From Candidatus Scalindua sp. (GTDB lineage Bacteria > Planctomycetota > Brocadiia > Brocadiales > Scalinduaceae), in contig JASMMK010000019.1 of NCBI GenBank assembly GCA_030748215.1, positions 62,001-126,000 on the forward strand: a stretch of 64,000 nucleotides of DNA, in the 5' to 3' direction. Of this stretch, positions 7,756 to 16,434 are shown one piece after another. Numbering within the stretch: the stretch's first letter is position 1; the number at the start of each line of letters is the position of its first letter. The position numbers and the translations under genes are program-made. Below the pieces are notes generated by a model, which ran no database searches, was not told the origin of the DNA, and saw only the letters and a list, made by a program, of their open reading frames with translations.

Positions 7756-10700
7756 TTATTCAACTGTCGTAGTACCACCACCAAGATAAAGTTTCATAAA
7801 TTTACTCTCATTTGCAGGAGTGAAACCTGTTCTTGCCGGTTCCCATACTCCTTTTGCACCTAAACCACCATCTTCAGCTTTAGTAATCCTGACCAATGTT
7901 TCTTTAGGAACAGTATTAACAACATGGTTGTCAGCCTCACCACCATGCATGAATCCCATGAAAACTTTCTTCTTATGGAAGAGGGTATCTGTCTGGTGCA
8001 TCGGCATTAACCACGATCTGGTTATCGACTGCTGAGAACCATATCTGAAGTTCGCAAGATAACCATCTGAAGACATTGCCATACCATCTTTCCTTGTTTC
8101 ATGTGCCTTAACACTCTTTTCTGTAGCAACAAATGTTGAATGTTTCATCATTGTCGTATGATAAGGATATGCAGGATTGTACTTTGCCCTTACCATAAGT
8201 CTCGCGACCTTATAAAATGGGTCATTCGGCTTCCAACCCCTGTATGGTCTGTCAACAGGATTTGAATCAACGTAAATATAATCACCATCATTGATAGCAA
8301 GATCTTTAGCCGCAGCCGGATTTATGTGCAACTGATGTTCTCCTACACCCGGACTTCGTTTGTCCATTCTATATGGATCACCAAAGTTATTATTCCAGAT
8401 AAGGTTCCAGTCCACAGTACTCCATTGCGAATGAACCCTGTGTCTTGTTTTAGGTGTTACGCAATAGAATCTGTAACCTTTTTCCCACAGAGGATTTTTC
8501 GTTTTCTTAACTTCGCTCCATGGCATCTTTATATTCCTTACATGACGTTCATCCGCACCCATGTGATTCTTCGGAATACCATAATCTTCCGGCCTGATAT
8601 AAGGGTTTGTACTGACGATTACGTTAGGAAGATAAGGAGTTGCCTCAACAGCTTCCCTGTGACATATAAAGTTTTCACCGTATTCAATCGCTTCCGGTAT
8701 GTCACAATACGAATGAAGCCTTCCATCGTCTGTATGGAATGGACGATCATATACCACCTGTTCATACATTGGAGTCCTTGGATAAGTACCAAAATTTAAA
8801 AGAGCACCACCCGGAACACCGCCATATTTACCGGCGATCATATCGTTAACGTTATATCCCCTGGTAGGAACACTACCATCAAAGAGCCTCTGCATATAGA
8901 CTTCAGGTCTCTCTTCCAGAGCAAATTTCCAGTAATCCGCAAACCTTCTATCACCAAGTAGCTCACCCATTCTTTTGGAAACCAGTGCCGGTACCATAAC
9001 GTCATCCTTAGTATCATGGAGTGGTCTTATTCCACCTTTCCATACCTGAAGGAATGGGTTAGAGCATGAGCAAGTAACTTCGTAGTGCTCAAATTCCATC
9101 CATGAATTTACCGGGAATCCAACGTCGGCATATTGTATGGATGATGTCATCATAATGTCGCTGGATATAATAAGGTCAATCCTCGGATTAACATTCTTAA
9201 ACATCTCATATACCCATTTAGCATTATTTATCAGGTTCACGTTGTTAAACCACAACACCTTGGTAGGAGTGTTGTAGTGTGTTTCACCGGTAAAACTCTT
9301 TCTACCAAACTTAGGAGTATTAACAATTAGTGGTGTATCGCCATGATTCCAGTATGCTACCTCTTCGTCCATAGCATAACTGTGAGCATGTATATCCTTA
9401 CCATCCGCATAAGGATCAAGATTCATCTCAAATGGATCTTCAGCAATAATTCCTTTAAATCCAGGACCTGACCATTTTGAACCCTGGAAGTTACCGGCCT
9501 TGTAATTACCAGCCCACGTATGTGATCCTGAACCATGATATCCAATATTACCCGTCAACATTAATGGCAAGTACGTCGCTCTGTTATGTAGTGTCGCATG
9601 GAAGTAATGATTGATACCTTCACCATAATGTATAGCAGCAGGTTTTATAGTTGCACAGTCCTTAGCCAATCTTTCAATAAGATGGGCAGGTGATCCTGTA
9701 ATATCTGCTGTAGTCTTAACATCAAAATCCCTGAGATGAATCTTGTAGAGATCGAACAGCGTCATAACCTCAACATCTTTACCATCTACAGTCTTAACCG
9801 TGAATGTTCCTTCCAGCGATGGATCTATTCCCTTGGCAACCATCTTCTTTCCAACATCTTCTCTTGTTATTGCCTTAAAATCCTTTGCCTTTGCATCATA
9901 CACAACAAAATCACCTAACTGCTTCCTCTGTTCCTTCTTCAAGCCCTGAACGGTGTGACTATAATCCAACTCAGGCTGCTTGTAGTCTTTGATAATTTCA
10001 TGAGGTTGCAATCTCTTTAATGTATCCGTTCTGACAAGAAGCGGGAAGTCAGTGAACTTCTTAACAAAATCCACGTCATACCATTTGTTATCCATTATGA
10101 TCTTCGTCATAGTAAGGAATATGGTAGTATCTGAGATACCGGTTCTACAAGGAATCCAGTAATCAGCCTTTGTCGCAGAAGGGCTATACTCAGGTGTTAT
10201 AACTACCAGTTTTCCTCCACGCTCAATAACCTCTGTCAGCCAGTGTGCTTCAGGCATTTTGTTCTCAATAAGATTTTTTCCAACCTGTATAACCAGCTTT
10301 GAGTATCTGAGATCTGCAAAGTCAACGTCAGATGCCTGTAAACCATGAACAAAAGGATGTCCCGGCGCCTGGTCACCATGCCATGTGTAGTTTGAGAACC
10401 TTCTACCACCCTGAGCCTTATCGGCACCTACACCTCTTACATTAGCATCAAGCAATGCCAGCGTGTTGGAGAATCGGTACATACCCATATATTTTCCAAT
10501 AACTCCAAGCAGACCCATACCACCACGATTTTTAAAGCACCTTGTACCGGCACCATTCCAGTGTGTAAGAGTTTCAGGCGCATACTTATCTCTTTCAAGC
10601 AGCCTCTTCTTTCCCTCTTCACCACTATAAGCCTTGGCGATAGCGATCATTCCTTTGGCAACGTAATCAATTATATCATCCCAAGACATCTTTAACTGCT

Positions 10701-11205
10701 CATCAGTACCTCTGGATGTAAATTTATATTTCTCTCTGGCACTCCAATCTAATTCAGGAAAACCGTCATCTGCCCACTGTTTCCAACCTTTCCTTAGCAA
10801 TGGGAATCTTAGCCTATGCGGACCATAAACCCTTCTGAAAAAGGTAAATCCTTTCAAACACATTCTTGGGTTCCATGACTGTTGAGGTGTTCTTCCCTCT
10901 ATATCACCGTAATTCTGATGTTCATAGTCCTGTTCTACTCTTATTACAACTTCGTTCCGTACAAACGCTCTTACTCGACACTGATGAGTATCATTCGGCG
11001 AGCAACAGAAAGCAAATGAACGGTCATATTTATACTGATTCCTGTATACGTCCTCCCAGTTTCTATCAGGATATGAATCGAGTGGATTATCCACCTCTAC
11101 TGCCGGTTTCAATGACGTTAAGGCCAGCGCATTTCTCATAGGTATTGATACAGCCGCTGTTACCCCTCCCGCAACCTTCATAAACGTCCTTCGCGTAAGC
11201 TTCAT
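7756..11205 (-). CDS. nxrA: Nitrite oxidoreductase alpha subunit (Mo-bisPGD, Tat-exported)
   Basis: Catalytic subunit of nitrite oxidoreductase, oxidising nitrite to nitrate and releasing low-potential electrons. It begins with a twin-arginine signal (LTRRTFMK then a hydrophobic stretch ending near ALA). The N-terminal cluster motif is C-x3-D-x3-C-x39-C (C68, D72, C76, C116). An Asp replaces the usual second ligand, as in several type II DMSO-reductase enzymes. The likely Mo-ligand Asp is D278 in NYTWHGDQAPGHP, matching the NarG WYADLPPASP region. I start at the ATG at 11205, six bases after GGAGG. The ATG at 11211 directly abuts that ribosome site. Length 1149 residues. It is the last gene of the operon. 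Confidence 0.96.
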   Translation of the reverse strand: MKLTRRTFMKVAGGVTAAVSIPMRNALALTSLKPAVEVDNPLDSYPDRNWEDVYRNQYKYDRSFAFCCSPNDTHQCRVRAFVRNEVVIRVEQDYEHQNYGDIEGRTPQQSWNPRMCLKGFTFFRRVYGPHRLRFPLLRKGWKQWADDGFPELDWSAREKYKFTSRGTDEQLKMSWDDIIDYVAKGMIAIAKAYSGEEGKKRLLERDKYAPETLTHWNGAGTRCFKNRGGMGLLGVIGKYMGMYRFSNTLALLDANVRGVGADKAQGGRRFSNYTWHGDQAPGHPFVHGLQASDVDFADLRYSKLVIQVGKNLIENKMPEAHWLTEVIERGGKLVVITPEYSPSATKADYWIPCRTGISDTTIFLTMTKIIMDNKWYDVDFVKKFTDFPLLVRTDTLKRLQPHEIIKDYKQPELDYSHTVQGLKKEQRKQLGDFVVYDAKAKDFKAITREDVGKKMVAKGIDPSLEGTFTVKTVDGKDVEVMTLFDLYKIHLRDFDVKTTADITGSPAHLIERLAKDCATIKPAAIHYGEGINHYFHATLHNRATYLPLMLTGNIGYHGSGSHTWAGNYKAGNFQGSKWSGPGFKGIIAEDPFEMNLDPYADGKDIHAHSYAMDEEVAYWNHGDTPLIVNTPKFGRKSFTGETHYNTPTKVLWFNNVNLINNAKWVYEMFKNVNPRIDLIISSDIMMTSSIQYADVGFPVNSWMEFEHYEVTCSCSNPFLQVWKGGIRPLHDTKDDVMVPALVSKRMGELLGDRRFADYWKFALEERPEVYMQRLFDGSVPTRGYNVNDMIAGKYGGVPGGALLNFGTYPRTPMYEQVVYDRPFHTDDGRLHSYCDIPEAIEYGENFICHREAVEATPYLPNVIVSTNPYIRPEDYGIPKNHMGADERHVRNIKMPWSEVKKTKNPLWEKGYRFYCVTPKTRHRVHSQWSTVDWNLIWNNNFGDPYRMDKRSPGVGEHQLHINPAAAKDLAINDGDYIYVDSNPVDRPYRGWKPNDPFYKVARLMVRAKYNPAYPYHTTMMKHSTFVATEKSVKAHETRKDGMAMSSDGYLANFRYGSQQSITRSWLMPMHQTDTLFHKKKVFMGFMHGGEADNHVVNTVPKETLVRITKAEDGGLGAKGVWEPARTGFTPANESKFMKLYLGGGTTTVE

Positions 11206-11257
11206 ATACATCCTCCTATATCTCTTATATAAAAAATACTTTTAATCGCACTTAAAA

Positions 11258-12241
11258 CTACCACTTTCCTGCTTGAATCTTATAATATTCCGCACATCTT
11301 TCGCACACACCATCCAATGGTTTCCAATCGGGAAACTCTTCATTTATTATTTTGGCAATGTCCTCATCGTTTGCCACTTCCTCTATCCAATCAAATGACG
11401 GAAATCCACAAAGCGGACACGTAGTTCCGGGAACAGGACCAAGGGCCTTTGATTCTTCTACCAGTTCTTCAACAGTACGGCTCCCTGCAGCTAATGCAAG
11501 GACCTTATTTGTGTCTTTAGACAATTCAACCAGCCTGGGATGCGTAATAGTTTCATCTGCATTCCACATTTTATCAAATATCAGTTCCCTTGTCTCTTCT
11601 GGGATTTTACTGAAGAAAGAATCAAATTCTTTTCTTCTCTCTTCTTTTGATGCTGTAGTCTCCAGTCCTTTGTTAGTTAAACGTCCATCAATAGAAATAT
11701 CCCAGAAAAGCCTATATCTGTCTGTGATTATTCGTTCTTCCATTGGAGAGGTCGCAAACTCCTCATGTACATTATATTCAAACGCACTATTGATCATGTC
11801 AGAAACGTGCATAAGTTCATGCCTGATAACTCTGCTTATTTCATGACTACCTTCAATGAAAAGTTCAGGGTACAATCTTACAATGACCTTAGTACCCTCA
11901 TCTACAAGATTAGACCCTTCGTTCTTCCTTGTCGTAGCCCTCCTGACATGCACCTCCTTAATCTCTGCCTCAATATCAGGATACTCATCAAAGGCATCTC
12001 TCAGGAAGGTACCATAACCTAATCGATTAAAAAACTCCTCATCAAGTTCCCTGAACCTTCTTGGTCTCCTCTCCTCCTCCATCTCATAGATTGAGTCTCT
12101 TCTCTCATGATACTCATTGTATAAGGCAGAGTCTCCGGATGTTTCCTGACGTACCAAACCCTTACATACTATATCATCAACCAACTGATGATCGTACTTA
12201 ATTTCAAGAGTTTCAGCTTGTTCTGCTTGTAGTTCAGTCAT
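11258..12241 (-). CDS. nxr accessory protein: HELMH metallopeptidase-like domain plus Cys zinc-ribbon-like tail
   Basis: A 327-residue protein with a zincin-type HExxH motif (HELMH, residues 141-145) in a helix (SRVIRHELMHVSD). It ends in a CPLC-x34-CxxC module (C275, C278, C313, C316). No signal peptide is seen, so it is predicted cytoplasmic. I choose the ATG at 12241: it follows GAGGAG and overlaps the end of the TorD-like gene, whereas the longer open frame extends into that gene. The same Cys module with identical spacing occurs in the exported protein at 13109-13702. Its place between the chaperone gene and nxrA suggests a role in NXR assembly or maturation. Whether it is an active protease is unknown. 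Confidence 0.8.
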   Translation of the reverse strand: MTELQAEQAETLEIKYDHQLVDDIVCKGLVRQETSGDSALYNEYHERRDSIYEMEEERRPRRFRELDEEFFNRLGYGTFLRDAFDEYPDIEAEIKEVHVRRATTRKNEGSNLVDEGTKVIVRLYPELFIEGSHEISRVIRHELMHVSDMINSAFEYNVHEEFATSPMEERIITDRYRLFWDISIDGRLTNKGLETTASKEERRKEFDSFFSKIPEETRELIFDKMWNADETITHPRLVELSKDTNKVLALAAGSRTVEELVEESKALGPVPGTTCPLCGFPSFDWIEEVANDEDIAKIINEEFPDWKPLDGVCERCAEYYKIQAGKW

Positions 12242-13007
12242 ACTTCTCCTCGTCCATACAAGAGTCACATGCACTGGCGCTTTTACCCTCAAGCCGCTGT
12301 AGATAATCTGGTTCGTTACCCATATACTCATCTATCTCTTCAGCGTCAACAGACAACTTGACCATTTCGAGGTGAATAAAAAGACTTGCCAGAGTTGCTG
12401 CCTGACGATAGAAGTCTTCAGGCGTTTTCTTAATAACAGACGTTGTAAACGCTTTAATCCACCTGCCAATATGAGCATACAAAAACTTTTTCTTGCCGGA
12501 AAGACAGGATTCCTGTTGTTCTTTGCTGTGATTTTCTATTGAGTATGCCAGTTTGTAAGTCAGGAAATGCAGGAATTCCAATTCAACAGCTACATGGTCC
12601 CATCTTGTTGTAGTCATATCTTCTTCCATCTGAATGCCATATGCCTTATACATACCAGATATATCGGCAAGATCCTGAGTCTGCTGCCATATTTGCGAAC
12701 CGCTATAATACATCTCGTAAGGAGGACAATCCATAGCTACAGTTGCGGCTCCGAAAGTAGCACGATATCCCCACTCTAAATTCTCAGCGTCATTACCATC
12801 CAACGCTTTCTGCAACAGTTCAAATGGCTCCAACATCTCATTATTACCGCTAGTCAATATGCAACTTTTAACCTCTGCCACATACTCTTCATTATTTAGC
12901 ATCTCCAAAGCCTTTTTATTCGGCTCAAGAAGGCATGTAGAAAGGAACTGATAGATTTGACTTGCAGCTAGTAAATCTTCAACACTTTCATTAATTTCAA
13001 TTGCCAT
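12234..13007 (-). CDS. TorD/NarJ-family chaperone for NxrA
   Basis: A 257-residue all-helical protein of the TorD/DmsD/NarJ redox-enzyme maturation family, which holds Mo-enzyme apoproteins for cofactor insertion and checks them before Tat export. Family features are the acidic-aromatic loop (AMDCPPYEMYYSGSQIW) and the DHVAVELEFLHFLTYKL helix. The C-terminus has a CDSC pair close to the stop. GAGG precedes the ATG. The stop codon overlaps the start of the HELMH gene, indicating coupling. NxrA is the obvious client, as the only Tat-signal Mo-enzyme encoded nearby. Confidence 0.9.
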   Translation of the reverse strand: MAIEINESVEDLLAASQIYQFLSTCLLEPNKKALEMLNNEEYVAEVKSCILTSGNNEMLEPFELLQKALDGNDAENLEWGYRATFGAATVAMDCPPYEMYYSGSQIWQQTQDLADISGMYKAYGIQMEEDMTTTRWDHVAVELEFLHFLTYKLAYSIENHSKEQQESCLSGKKKFLYAHIGRWIKAFTTSVIKKTPEDFYRQAATLASLFIHLEMVKLSVDAEEIDEYMGNEPDYLQRLEGKSASACDSCMDEEKYD

Positions 13008-13108
13008 AACCGTCCTCTATCTCCTCATCATTCCCGCACGTTAGCAGGGAATGAGTAAATAAAATCATTATCAAGCAACCCAGAGATTGCAATTACAGAT
13101 TAAATCAA

Positions 13109-13702
13109 TTACTTTACGTTTTTAAAGTAGTTAAGAATATTTGGTGACTTCATATATCCGATAACATATTCATCTGTAGTAGACAAAACCGGCTTACCAT
13201 CAAAAAGTTTTCCAGACCTGACCTCATAACACTCAAAACAGTTACGGCAAACACCGTCTTCTTTGCTCCAACCAGGATAGTCATTTTTCATGAATGACAC
13301 TGTATCACTGTCTAAATCACTATCACTTAGCCAGAAATAGGTAGCGTCCCCACACAAAGGACACGGACTATGAGCTTTTGACCCTGCATCTTTTGCAGGT
13401 AACAGGTGGTGGTGTCCGGAAGTGTCTTTGACGTCTGTAATTCTCTTCTGCCAGCTATGATCTCCCTCTATCCAGTAAATATCAGTATGGCTCGGCTTAT
13501 CACCTTTCGGCTCTGCTGAGTCGTGGAACAGATGCCACTCAATATTACCATTATGCCTCTGATGGTATGTTGGATCGTCTGTCGACTTAAATGCCTCAAA
13601 GCTTTCAGTCCACTCCTCAGCACCTACGTGTTTAATCCCAGTAAAACCAATACCCATAAAGGCAAATATACTTAAAATGCACAGTAATCTCGGATATTTC
13701 AT
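13109..13702 (-). CDS. Exported nxr-cluster protein with CPLC-x34-CxxC module
   Basis: A 197-residue protein with a Sec signal peptide (hydrophobic residues 5-22, cleavage near VGA-EE). The mature part contains a His-rich stretch (TSGHHHLLP) and then CPLCG (C114, C117) and CRNCFEC (C152, C155, plus C158). The segment between, with DYPGW and DGVC, closely matches the tail of the HELMH protein. A strong GGGAGG site precedes the start. It lies between nxrB and the chaperone gene, so it is probably a metal- or redox-active helper of NXR on the outer face of the membrane. I recognise no named family. Confidence 0.8.
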   Translation of the reverse strand: MKYPRLLCILSIFAFMGIGFTGIKHVGAEEWTESFEAFKSTDDPTYHQRHNGNIEWHLFHDSAEPKGDKPSHTDIYWIEGDHSWQKRITDVKDTSGHHHLLPAKDAGSKAHSPCPLCGDATYFWLSDSDLDSDTVSFMKNDYPGWSKEDGVCRNCFECYEVRSGKLFDGKPVLSTTDEYVIGYMKSPNILNYFKNVK

Positions 13703-13753: not shown

Positions 13754-15022
13754 TTAGTACGTGACCATTCGCTTTTCGTCGCTTTCCCATGTTGGCTCTT
13801 CAACTTTAATCCTGGCCAATTCGGTACCATCTGAAGCATAGCCAATAGCAGTGTCGTTATACACCTCGACCTTTTTCCCCATTACCTCAGATTCATAAAT
13901 CTTCGGTCCATCTTCCACTTCGAATCTGGCTATCATGGTTTGAGTTGACCTGAAAAGCGCCAAAACAGCCATCAGAGTTCTGGATGGCGCAGCGTATTTA
14001 TCAAGCGCCTCGTCTACTCCCGGGCCAAACATCTGCCTTAAATAAGCTCTAGGAGCCCATCTTGGCGGTATGTAATATATATTAGGCTCTGTACCAAACT
14101 GCGGGTAAAGAGGTAATGCTACTTTATGTATGTGAACCAGCCAGTCCATCGGATTCTTAGGATCAGGTTTTTTATAATCACCTGATAAAAGACCGTTCAA
14201 TCTGATCTTACCCACACAGGCGGCCATACAACGAGCCTCCATCCTCCTGCCCTTTGTAATAGGATCCTTACCCTCTACCCTCGGATAACAAGCGATACAT
14301 TTTTCAGACATTCTTGTTTCACCACGATACATAGGCTTCTTGTAAGGACACTGCTCAACACACTTTCTATACCCTCTGCAACGTTTCTGATCTATCAAGA
14401 CGATACCGTCTTCTTTACGTTTATATATGGCTTTTCTCGGACAAGCAGCCAGACATGCCGGATAAGTACAGTGGTTACAAACTCTCTGGAGATAGAAGAA
14501 CCATCTCTTATGTTCAGGAAGTTCTGAAGACTCTTTGTCCTTACTTGATCCTAATTCATAATTTGTCTTTTCACTTGCAGCAGTATCTTCGTATATGTTT
14601 GGGAACCTCCACTCTTTGTCATCTGGTATATAACCAACTGCTACCTGATTAAGCCCTTTATTTTGAGCCAATTCAAAGATAGTATCACCGTTATAAAGTC
14701 CGTAAGGAGCCGTAGTTTCATTCTTATCTTCCGCACCTGTAAACCACTCCATAGGGTTATTACCGTTATCCCACAACATCTGTAATATTTTCTGGTCCCA
14801 ATGCTGAGGATATCCACCATAAGGTTTCGTCTCGACATTATTCCACCACATATACTCCTGTCCTTTACTGTATGTCCATGTACTTTTATGTGCCATTGTA
14901 CAGGTCTGACAAGCAATACACCTGTTTATATTAAAGACTGCAGTAAATTGATGTTCCGGCCTTGACTCGAAGTATGGATACTCCATTGTTCTCCCAAGGT
15001 GCCAGTTGTGAACAAGCGTCAT
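13754..15022 (-). CDS. nxrB: Nitrite oxidoreductase beta subunit (four Fe-S clusters)
   Basis: Electron-transfer subunit that passes electrons from NxrA to NxrC. Four cysteine groups are seen: CIACQTCTMAH (from C35), CNHCTYPACLAACP, CRGYRKCVEQCP (the 3Fe-4S-type motif, aromatic in place of a Cys) and CIAC...CMAAC. In the first group the position of the fourth Cys of NarH is a His (H45). No signal peptide is present, in keeping with Tat co-export on the NxrA signal. AAGGAGG precedes the ATG. Its 422 residues fit the anammox/DMSO-reductase type II beta subunits. Confidence 0.95.
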   Translation of the reverse strand: MTLVHNWHLGRTMEYPYFESRPEHQFTAVFNINRCIACQTCTMAHKSTWTYSKGQEYMWWNNVETKPYGGYPQHWDQKILQMLWDNGNNPMEWFTGAEDKNETTAPYGLYNGDTIFELAQNKGLNQVAVGYIPDDKEWRFPNIYEDTAASEKTNYELGSSKDKESSELPEHKRWFFYLQRVCNHCTYPACLAACPRKAIYKRKEDGIVLIDQKRCRGYRKCVEQCPYKKPMYRGETRMSEKCIACYPRVEGKDPITKGRRMEARCMAACVGKIRLNGLLSGDYKKPDPKNPMDWLVHIHKVALPLYPQFGTEPNIYYIPPRWAPRAYLRQMFGPGVDEALDKYAAPSRTLMAVLALFRSTQTMIARFEVEDGPKIYESEVMGKKVEVYNDTAIGYASDGTELARIKVEEPTWESDEKRMVTY

Positions 15023-15078: not shown

Positions 15079-16020
15079 TTATCTTGAGGACTCTAATGTT
15101 ATAGGTCTCCATCTAATACTGACCGATTTTAGGCCATTTCTATCACCATCTTCTCCATTCCAGACTGCCATATTGAAGAATGTTGATTTGCCCGGTGTAA
15201 ACTGAACATCATTTTCGTCCTCTGTTTTCAACGGTCTGTAAACGATAACATCCCACTGCCCATCACTCCAGGCACCTGCACCATTAACATCCTGATGTGT
15301 TTGCGCAGTAAGCGTACCAAACCCCACAGCATTCAGATCTTCTACAGAGCGACCCCTAGGAAGCGAAAGCAAAGATCCGGCAGATATACCACCAGCCAAA
15401 AGGTCAACGCTATCGTGTACTGTTTTATTAAAAATGCAAGGATGAGGATCAGAATCAAAGTCATGAAACATGTCAGGATACTGATCTTCCATGTGTTCAT
15501 AGCCACCGTCTGCTTGTAGATCACGTTCCCAGTCGGCTTTCCAATGCCAGATATTTACGGTTTTACCCCTATCACCCATTCTAGGGCTAAAAGGAGTTTC
15601 CGGAGATATTTTTACAATACCAAGAGGAAACATCAGGCCAACCGCGTCTCTAAACTGTTCATGCTTAATAGCTCTATCATTCTTAGTTGCATCACTCCAA
15701 CGTATTCCAAGAAAAATATCTTTTCCATTATGTACACCTCTGATCTCGACTTCTGGCACAGAGCCACCACCATTTGGAAAAGACCTGTCCTGTATCTGCA
15801 AATTAACCGTGTATGATGACGCATTAGCAAGAGCATCAGCAGCTCCTTCTAAATCGGTATCTGCAAATTTGACGGTCAGCCCTTCTTCAGTGGGTATGTT
15901 CTCTTCCACTGTTGCTTCCTGCTCAAGGCTTTGTGAGAAACCCTCACCACTATATATAAAGAACATCGCGACAAAAGCGCTTCCCAGGAAAATAGACTTT
16001 CGTATAAGGCCTCTCAACAT
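15079..16020 (-). CDS. nxrC: Nitrite oxidoreductase gamma subunit (exported heme-binding-type)
   Basis: Third NXR subunit, related to the heme b gamma subunits of ethylbenzene dehydrogenase and chlorate reductase. It receives electrons from NxrB. A Sec signal peptide is clear (LIRKSIFLGSAFVAMFFIYSG). The body has the family pattern EIRGVHNGKDIFLGIRWSDAT followed by a C-terminal FNMAVWNGEDGDR segment. Heme ligands cannot be assigned by eye. I start at the ATG at 16020, eight bases after GGAGG. The GTG five codons upstream lies in that ribosome site. It is the first gene of the operon, with a leader of about 400 nt from the predicted promoter. Confidence 0.92.
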   Translation of the reverse strand: MLRGLIRKSIFLGSAFVAMFFIYSGEGFSQSLEQEATVEENIPTEEGLTVKFADTDLEGAADALANASSYTVNLQIQDRSFPNGGGSVPEVEIRGVHNGKDIFLGIRWSDATKNDRAIKHEQFRDAVGLMFPLGIVKISPETPFSPRMGDRGKTVNIWHWKADWERDLQADGGYEHMEDQYPDMFHDFDSDPHPCIFNKTVHDSVDLLAGGISAGSLLSLPRGRSVEDLNAVGFGTLTAQTHQDVNGAGAWSDGQWDVIVYRPLKTEDENDVQFTPGKSTFFNMAVWNGEDGDRNGLKSVSIRWRPITLESSR

Positions 16021-16434
16021 GACTATAACCTCCACTAAAATTGTAAAATGAATTTCAAAGATGTGCTTGAGTAAAAACCAAGTAGATCATTATAGGTTAA
16101 ATCAAAAAAAACTCAAATTAAAAATGATAAAAACCTGAAATTAACACAAAACACAATGGTAAACTAACGACTTTATGAAAGTACAAGATTCTCTAGACAA
16201 TTGTATTTGCAAGGTGTTTGCAAATATTAATAAAAGATGGCTAGTTCCGTGATATTTCTCAGGAAACGGATATGCAAGCTATGATGCGTGTTGGAATGAT
16301 CTTTCGAGATATTTATTCGTGTCCTATACCACTCAACACAAAACACTTAAAAGTTCACACCTGCCATTTCTTCCCCCTCCGGAAGAAAGTTATGCAGCCA
16401 TCTATTTTGCAATGAACATATGAAGATAATCGTA

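Follow-up and report, generated by a model that had tools for sequence, protein, structure and literature searches.

Gene content of the nxr locus

The locus lies on the reverse strand of the window, which is the whole stretch of 64,000 nucleotides of a Candidatus Scalindua genome that was analysed. It contains genes for the subunits of nitrite oxidoreductase (NXR), the nitrite-oxidising enzyme of anammox and many other bacteria, a NarJ/TorD-type chaperone, a 327-residue protein referred to here by its HExxH motif as the HELMH protein, and an exported protein of 197 residues.

7756..11211, reverse strand: NxrA, molybdopterin subunit with a Tat-type leader
11258..12241, reverse strand: HELMH protein, 327 aa, without a signal peptide (ATG at 12241)
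11267..11431, reverse strand: C4 module of the HELMH protein, C-terminal, residues 271-325 (Cys pairs at 11408-11419 and 11294-11305)
11738-11740, reverse strand: E168 of the HELMH protein, candidate third ligand
11807..11821, reverse strand: HELMH, the HExxH motif (H141-H145) of the zincin-like domain
12234..13007, reverse strand: NarJ/TorD-type chaperone (Nitrate_red_del, Pfam E 4e-18)
13109..13702, reverse strand: exported 197-aa protein, encoded between nxrB and the NarJ-like gene
13211..13375, reverse strand: C4 module of the exported protein, residues 110-164 (Cys pairs at 13352-13363 and 13238-13249)
13619..13702, reverse strand: Sec-type signal peptide, residues 1-28 of the 197-aa protein (from sequence and alignment)
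13754..15022, reverse strand: NxrB, iron-sulfur subunit
15079..16023, reverse strand: NxrC, heme b subunit, putative start (EB_dh, Pfam E 1e-32)

The end of the chaperone gene and the start of the HELMH gene overlap by 8 nt (12234-12241). Both module-bearing proteins fall within 11258-13702, where the sequence-only reading had placed them as neighbours, although the same interval also spans the NarJ/TorD-like gene (12234-13007). As that reading had claimed, one of them has no signal peptide and the other has one of the Sec type, and both are encoded inside the nxr operon. Between the genes for the exported protein and the chaperone, an inverted repeat (CATTCCC...GGGAATG) occurs at window positions 13020-13056, and the intergenic RNA of this segment folds better than shuffled sequences (z -2.2). 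The fold possibly reduces expression of the chaperone relative to the subunits.

The HELMH gene lies between nxrA and the NarJ-like gene, and this order makes its product the orthologue of Kuenenia kustd1701, an ‘unknown protein’ listed between nxrA (kustd1700) and kustd1702 (PMC6423088). Kuenenia, Nitrospira, and Nitrospina share ‘one putative zinc finger’ protein in their NXR regions (Lucker et al., 2013, PMC3578206), and its gene is very likely the HELMH gene, judging by position and description. The available portions of these two sources assign the gene neither a domain or motif nor a function or wider distribution and do not mention the exported Scalindua protein, and no functional account of the HELMH protein was found in the literature searched. 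In Scalindua profunda, nxrA, nxrD, and nxrB are scal00863, scal00865, and scal00867, respectively (PMC3655542), so that scal00864 and scal00866 would be the HELMH and exported proteins if the gene order is the same.

A four-cysteine module shared by two proteins of the operon

Translation places the cysteines at C275, C278, C313, and C316 in the HELMH protein and at C114, C117, C152, and C155 in the exported protein, which confirms the positions originally read from the DNA as well as the 34 residues between the Cys pairs in both proteins. The common module extends over about 55 residues, with the pattern CPLCG...W...(D/E)(F/Y)PxW..DGVCxxC. The two copies align by BLASTP (E 4e-13, 63 residues, 33% identity) and by profile-profile comparison (E 1.8e-17, 57 columns), and on these alignments their likeness is homology, not chance. 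A module profile run against the window’s genome retrieved the HELMH and 197-aa proteins with E of about 1e-27 and otherwise one stop-containing fragment (E 0.05). The four cysteines, whose loss in orthologues was to have counted against the original proposal, are invariant in 30/30 anammox HELMH proteins and 14/14 exported proteins. The spacing of 34 is nearly fixed within anammox, where one Brocadiaceae orthologue has 33, and ranges from about 29 to 45 across the wider HELMH family. A strict functional ruler of 34 residues was rejected in view of this variation.

As for the proposed duplication, a recent or local event is not indicated: the exported modules form their own clade on the module tree and are not joined to the HELMH copies. 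The tree is short and poorly resolved, and it gives no support to a recent tandem duplication inside the operon. The earlier statement that no described family has this pairing agrees with Pfam and NCBIfam, which hold no model for the HELMH protein or the module. PDB sequence searches with the HELMH family, the exported family, and the module alone likewise returned nothing significant.

The sequence-only reading had proposed structure prediction as a check for a zinc ribbon. In the AlphaFold2 (AF2) model of the HELMH protein (mean pLDDT 89), the module is a hairpin followed by a helix and resembles a treble clef, while the model of the exported protein, built from five sequences, is poor (pLDDT 39). 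With two CxxC pairs of invariant cysteines and a predicted secondary structure of a hairpin and then a helix carrying the second pair, the HELMH module most likely binds one metal ion through its four cysteines in a treble-clef-like arrangement, and the metal is putatively zinc.

The same invariant cysteines and paired CxxC motifs could instead belong to a redox or iron centre of the rubredoxin type, or to a thiol/disulfide device, that serves the assembly of Fe-S clusters or heme on either side of the membrane, in line with the sequence-only reading. Iron binding through CxxC motifs has a precedent in FdhE (PMC10609526). We regard such a function as unlikely: the predicted hairpin and helix, with the second pair at the helix start, look more like a structural treble clef, and the exported half is absent from the examined NXR systems other than those of Scalinduaceae. 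Heme binding by the module is also improbable, as CxxCH is found in neither Cys pair (CPLCG; CERCA in one protein and CRNCF in the other), and a heme or c-type cytochrome site was rejected on this ground.

Relatives of the module outside nxr loci

The sequence-only reading would have been contradicted by an unrelated zinc finger scattered through the genome. Such scattering is absent from the window’s genome, in which no further protein carries the module, but related modules do occur in a few unrelated proteins of other Planctomycetota, which bears out the objection in part. A Planctomycetota subtilase (Peptidase_S8; L108 6480-8138, reverse strand) has a related N-terminal C4 module, CPIC...NPDWSSQEGACPRC. 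A related CPLCG...W...DGxCxxCxEYY module is present in small and mid-sized Planctomycetota ORFs that match no family model (L110 6684-6956, L111 1225-1566, L112 7948-8229, L114 3168-3863, and L116 7791-8441). Matches in L128 (7483-8193) and L129 (8425-9141) are marginal (E 0.01-0.02); the one in L128, a DUF1003 membrane protein, falls at the N-terminus and may be a distant relative of the module. A 52-aa ORF in a Brocadiaceae genome (G032:C3) was considered as a free-standing module and proved to be a contig-edge HELMH fragment beside a second nxrA.

The module might accordingly be an ordinary mobile zinc finger, gained independently by the two proteins and having no special meaning for NXR. 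The subtilase, the small and mid-sized ORFs, the marginal DUF1003 matches, and the separation of exported and HELMH copies on the module tree are all consistent with such mobility. However, in the window’s genome only the HELMH and 197-aa proteins, both of the nxr operon, carry the module, and the strong matches across the phylum are for the most part HELMH proteins encoded next to nxr, which makes independent acquisition of a general-purpose finger very unlikely.

Structure and conservation of the HELMH protein

The AF2 model of the HELMH protein consists of helices and a small sheet. The HExxH helix spans residues 132-150, a second helix (166-190) holds E168, and the second CxxC pair lies at the start of a helix. 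Fold matches of the model in the PDB are mostly zincins (M61, collagenase, astacin 1ast, and SPRTN 6mdw), with a best E of 0.31 and none at E ≤ 0.001. The window’s protein scores below the curated cut-offs of the M91 (E 0.13, 13 of 25 bits) and SprT-like (E 0.18, 12.1 of 25.6 bits) models, as does the best HELMH relative (E 0.0074 for M91 and 0.012 for SprT-like), and no Pfam or NCBIfam model covers the HELMH family. The predicted architecture is a zincin-like domain followed by a treble-clef-like C4 module.

Residues H141, E142, H145, and E168 are invariant, like the four module cysteines, in the 30 anammox HELMH orthologues, and Y52, D148, and W180 are invariant in 46/46 sequences. Of 32 relatives outside anammox, 17 retain an intact HExxH and 11 retain it together with the E168 position, whereas the four Cys columns are kept in all 27 that align in that region. 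A few HELMH proteins are without the module. One of those 27 sequences, an HELMH-family protein of Omnitrophota (L167 15644-16633), has a ferredoxin-like tail in place of the C4 module, which appears to have been swapped for a twin-arginine-like stretch and this tail.

These patterns bear on whether the HELMH protein functions as an active peptidase in maturation, cutting an NXR subunit or a chaperone after cofactor insertion, with the C4 module recognizing the substrate. Hydrogenase endopeptidases act likewise, once the cofactors are in. The invariant HExxH and E168 of the anammox orthologues and the weak likeness to zincins by fold, and to the SprT-like and M91 models, would suit such an enzyme. 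On the other hand, the zincin similarity is below significance, and the HExxH and E168 combination is retained in only 11/32 non-anammox relatives, even though their genes still adjoin nxrA or narJ, so that we consider peptidase action a rather improbable account of the family. The decay of HExxH outside anammox also weakened the candidacy of the HELMH protein as an obligate peptidase. Since HExxH decays while the C4 module persists, the conserved role seems to be binding more than peptidase chemistry, and the alignment suggests that the job kept across the HELMH family is binding, not proteolysis. A cleavage step is still possible in anammox, given the intact HExxH in every anammox orthologue.

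Linkage and co-occurrence with NXR

Full HELMH orthologues carrying the module occur in two families of the 59 nearest genomes, the window’s own and one other, which named loci match to Scalinduaceae (f1) and Brocadiaceae (f5), respectively. A scan of genome contigs with an NxrA alignment yielded 80 named loci, a set from which Nitrospirota are absent, and the HELMH family is encoded at 45 of them. All 45 HELMH genes are ≤120 bp from narJ or nxrA, and the overlap of 23 of these with the NarJ reading frame suggests translational coupling. The loci with HELMH belong to Planctomycetota, Omnitrophota, Methylomirabilota, Rokubacteria, Acidobacteriota, Poribacteria, Tectomicrobia, Neomarinimicrobiota, and a few Chloroflexota, among others. 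For 28 loci without an adjacent HELMH gene, a near-full-length copy occurs elsewhere in 5 of the genomes concerned. HELMH is missing from most of the Chloroflexota and Elusimicrobiota that have close NxrA relatives, and the protein is therefore not indispensable. On the NxrA tree, the presence of HELMH requires 10 changes compared to 24.3 in shuffles, i.e., it is strongly clustered.

The module profile also retrieved many HELMH proteins from other Planctomycetota, and most of the regions fetched contain an adjoining NxrA with 59-66% identity. Across 294 Planctomycetota genomes, sorted by hand into classes with NXR-type NxrA set at 53% identity or more, NXR-type NxrA is present in 43/45 HELMH carriers and HELMH in 43/52 NXR carriers, a generous HELMH count in that four f2 carriers have module-less, unlinked paralogues. 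None of the 16 Planctomycetota genomes having only an NxrA relative of ~41% identity encodes HELMH. The co-occurrence in this phylum has a Fisher p of 4e-40, or 2e-25 when Brocadiales are removed, and these p-values ignore relatedness. In the phylum of one further genome (G335), HELMH is present in 7/7 genomes with NxrA and in 0/11 others. HELMH is thus an NXR-dedicated gene, which occurs with NXR and adjoins the nxr genes.

Several loci depart from the common arrangement. Module-less HELMH paralogues are located away from nxr in Brocadiales (L119, L120, and L122-L126), and the sole trace of a paralogue in the window’s own genome is a fragment with several stops (G000:C44:34725-34928). A partial HELMH relic (L154 880-1374) directly precedes an NxrC-like gene and nxrA in a genome whose second nxrA is accompanied by a complete HELMH gene (G335:C128). 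A contig titled Desulfobacteraceae bacterium UBA2156 (DCWS01000034; L135 5914-13444) has the order nxrCB-narJ-HELMH-nxrA without the exported protein. Its NxrA is 80% identical to that of the window and groups with Scalindua. Horizontal transfer would explain this, as would a genome that is mislabelled or mixed, or one that comes from a Scalinduaceae relative.

The exported protein of Scalinduaceae

The exported protein is found only in Scalinduaceae, where 14 of the 17 genomes encode it in full, one has a fragment (G005), and two have none (G007 and G015). It is absent from all other NXR systems examined, which comprise the 80 NxrA loci and the 59 nearest genomes. Along with the four module cysteines, A28, H47, W31, W56, and W84 are invariant in the 14 orthologues, and the signal peptide is probably cleaved at VGA|EEW, after the invariant A28. 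Because of this restricted distribution, the exported protein is a Scalinduaceae addition, and the pairing of a cytoplasmic with an exported module is local, not a general NXR scheme. The ‘paired steps’ of NXR assembly envisaged from the sequence consequently find no support as a general scheme, while the link of the HELMH protein to NXR fits a role in assembly.

Possible role in NXR assembly and comparison with known systems

NXR is described by Lucker et al. as Tat-exported, with NxrB thought to travel along with NxrA (PMC3578206). We favor the HELMH protein as a second cytoplasmic factor for accessory, assembly, or export-control functions, dedicated to exported NXR (periplasmic or anammoxosomal), and consider this somewhat probable. 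Its linkage to NXR is so tight that a part in NXR assembly would be the obvious interpretation. The HELMH protein would work beside the NarJ/TorD-type chaperone and most likely binds immature NxrA or NxrAB before export, where it may aid cofactor or Fe-S assembly or hold the complex from Tat export until it is complete. In Scalinduaceae, the Sec-exported protein with the homologous module probably meets NXR in the anammoxosome lumen and may dock through this module, whose reuse suggests that the same partner is met there.

The closest functional analogy may be FdhE, a cytoplasmic CxxC iron protein that is systematically linked to periplasmic formate dehydrogenases and has been proposed as a pre-export proofreader (PMC10609526). 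Both FdhE and the HELMH protein are cytoplasmic CxxC proteins (with a putative metal in HELMH), are encoded with an exported molybdenum enzyme, and represent a second accessory factor. FdhE differs in having four CX2C motifs and in binding iron as in rubredoxin (PMC10609526), whereas the HELMH protein combines two CxxC pairs with an N-terminal domain that is zincin-like. No homology to FdhE was found in Pfam and NCBIfam scans or in a PDB sequence search with the HELMH alignment, despite an available FdhE structure (2fiy; PMC10609526). The proposal is accordingly limited to a HELMH protein that may work like FdhE, to which it is unrelated.

Like the HELMH protein, the NarJ/TorD/DmsD chaperones each serve a single molybdoenzyme, in whose operon they are encoded. 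However, the sequences are unrelated, and as a NarJ-type protein (12234-13007) is already present in the nxr operon, HELMH is an additional factor. The SprT-like/SPRTN zincins share a zincin-like core, an HExxH helix, and a C-terminal Cys module with the HELMH protein, but its match to the Pfam SprT-like model is below cut-off and its fold match is weak.

Implications for NXR maturation

The zincin-like and C4 architecture, the wide and specific linkage to NXR, the decay of the HExxH motif, and the exported relative in Scalinduaceae are new. Virtually all nitrate formed biologically is attributed to NXR (PMC8387239). In the literature reviewed, it is assembled with a TorD-like chaperone, and the HELMH protein is a second companion in many phyla. 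It tracks the NXR-type enzyme rather than the relatives of ~41% identity, which points to a missing maturation step, and it may serve as a marker gene for genuine exported-NXR operons. We suggest that a requirement for HELMH may be among the causes of the difficulty in producing NXR in foreign hosts. More tentatively, and with considerable doubt, exported NXR may need this second dedicated factor, not shared with other molybdoenzymes, in which a zincin-like fold has been kept while the peptidase site decayed in many lineages; in Scalinduaceae, the exported copy of the docking module would provide the same recognition after transport, e.g., in building or protecting anammoxosomal NXR assemblies. 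The exported copy is a concrete lead on what sets the NXR of marine Scalindua apart.
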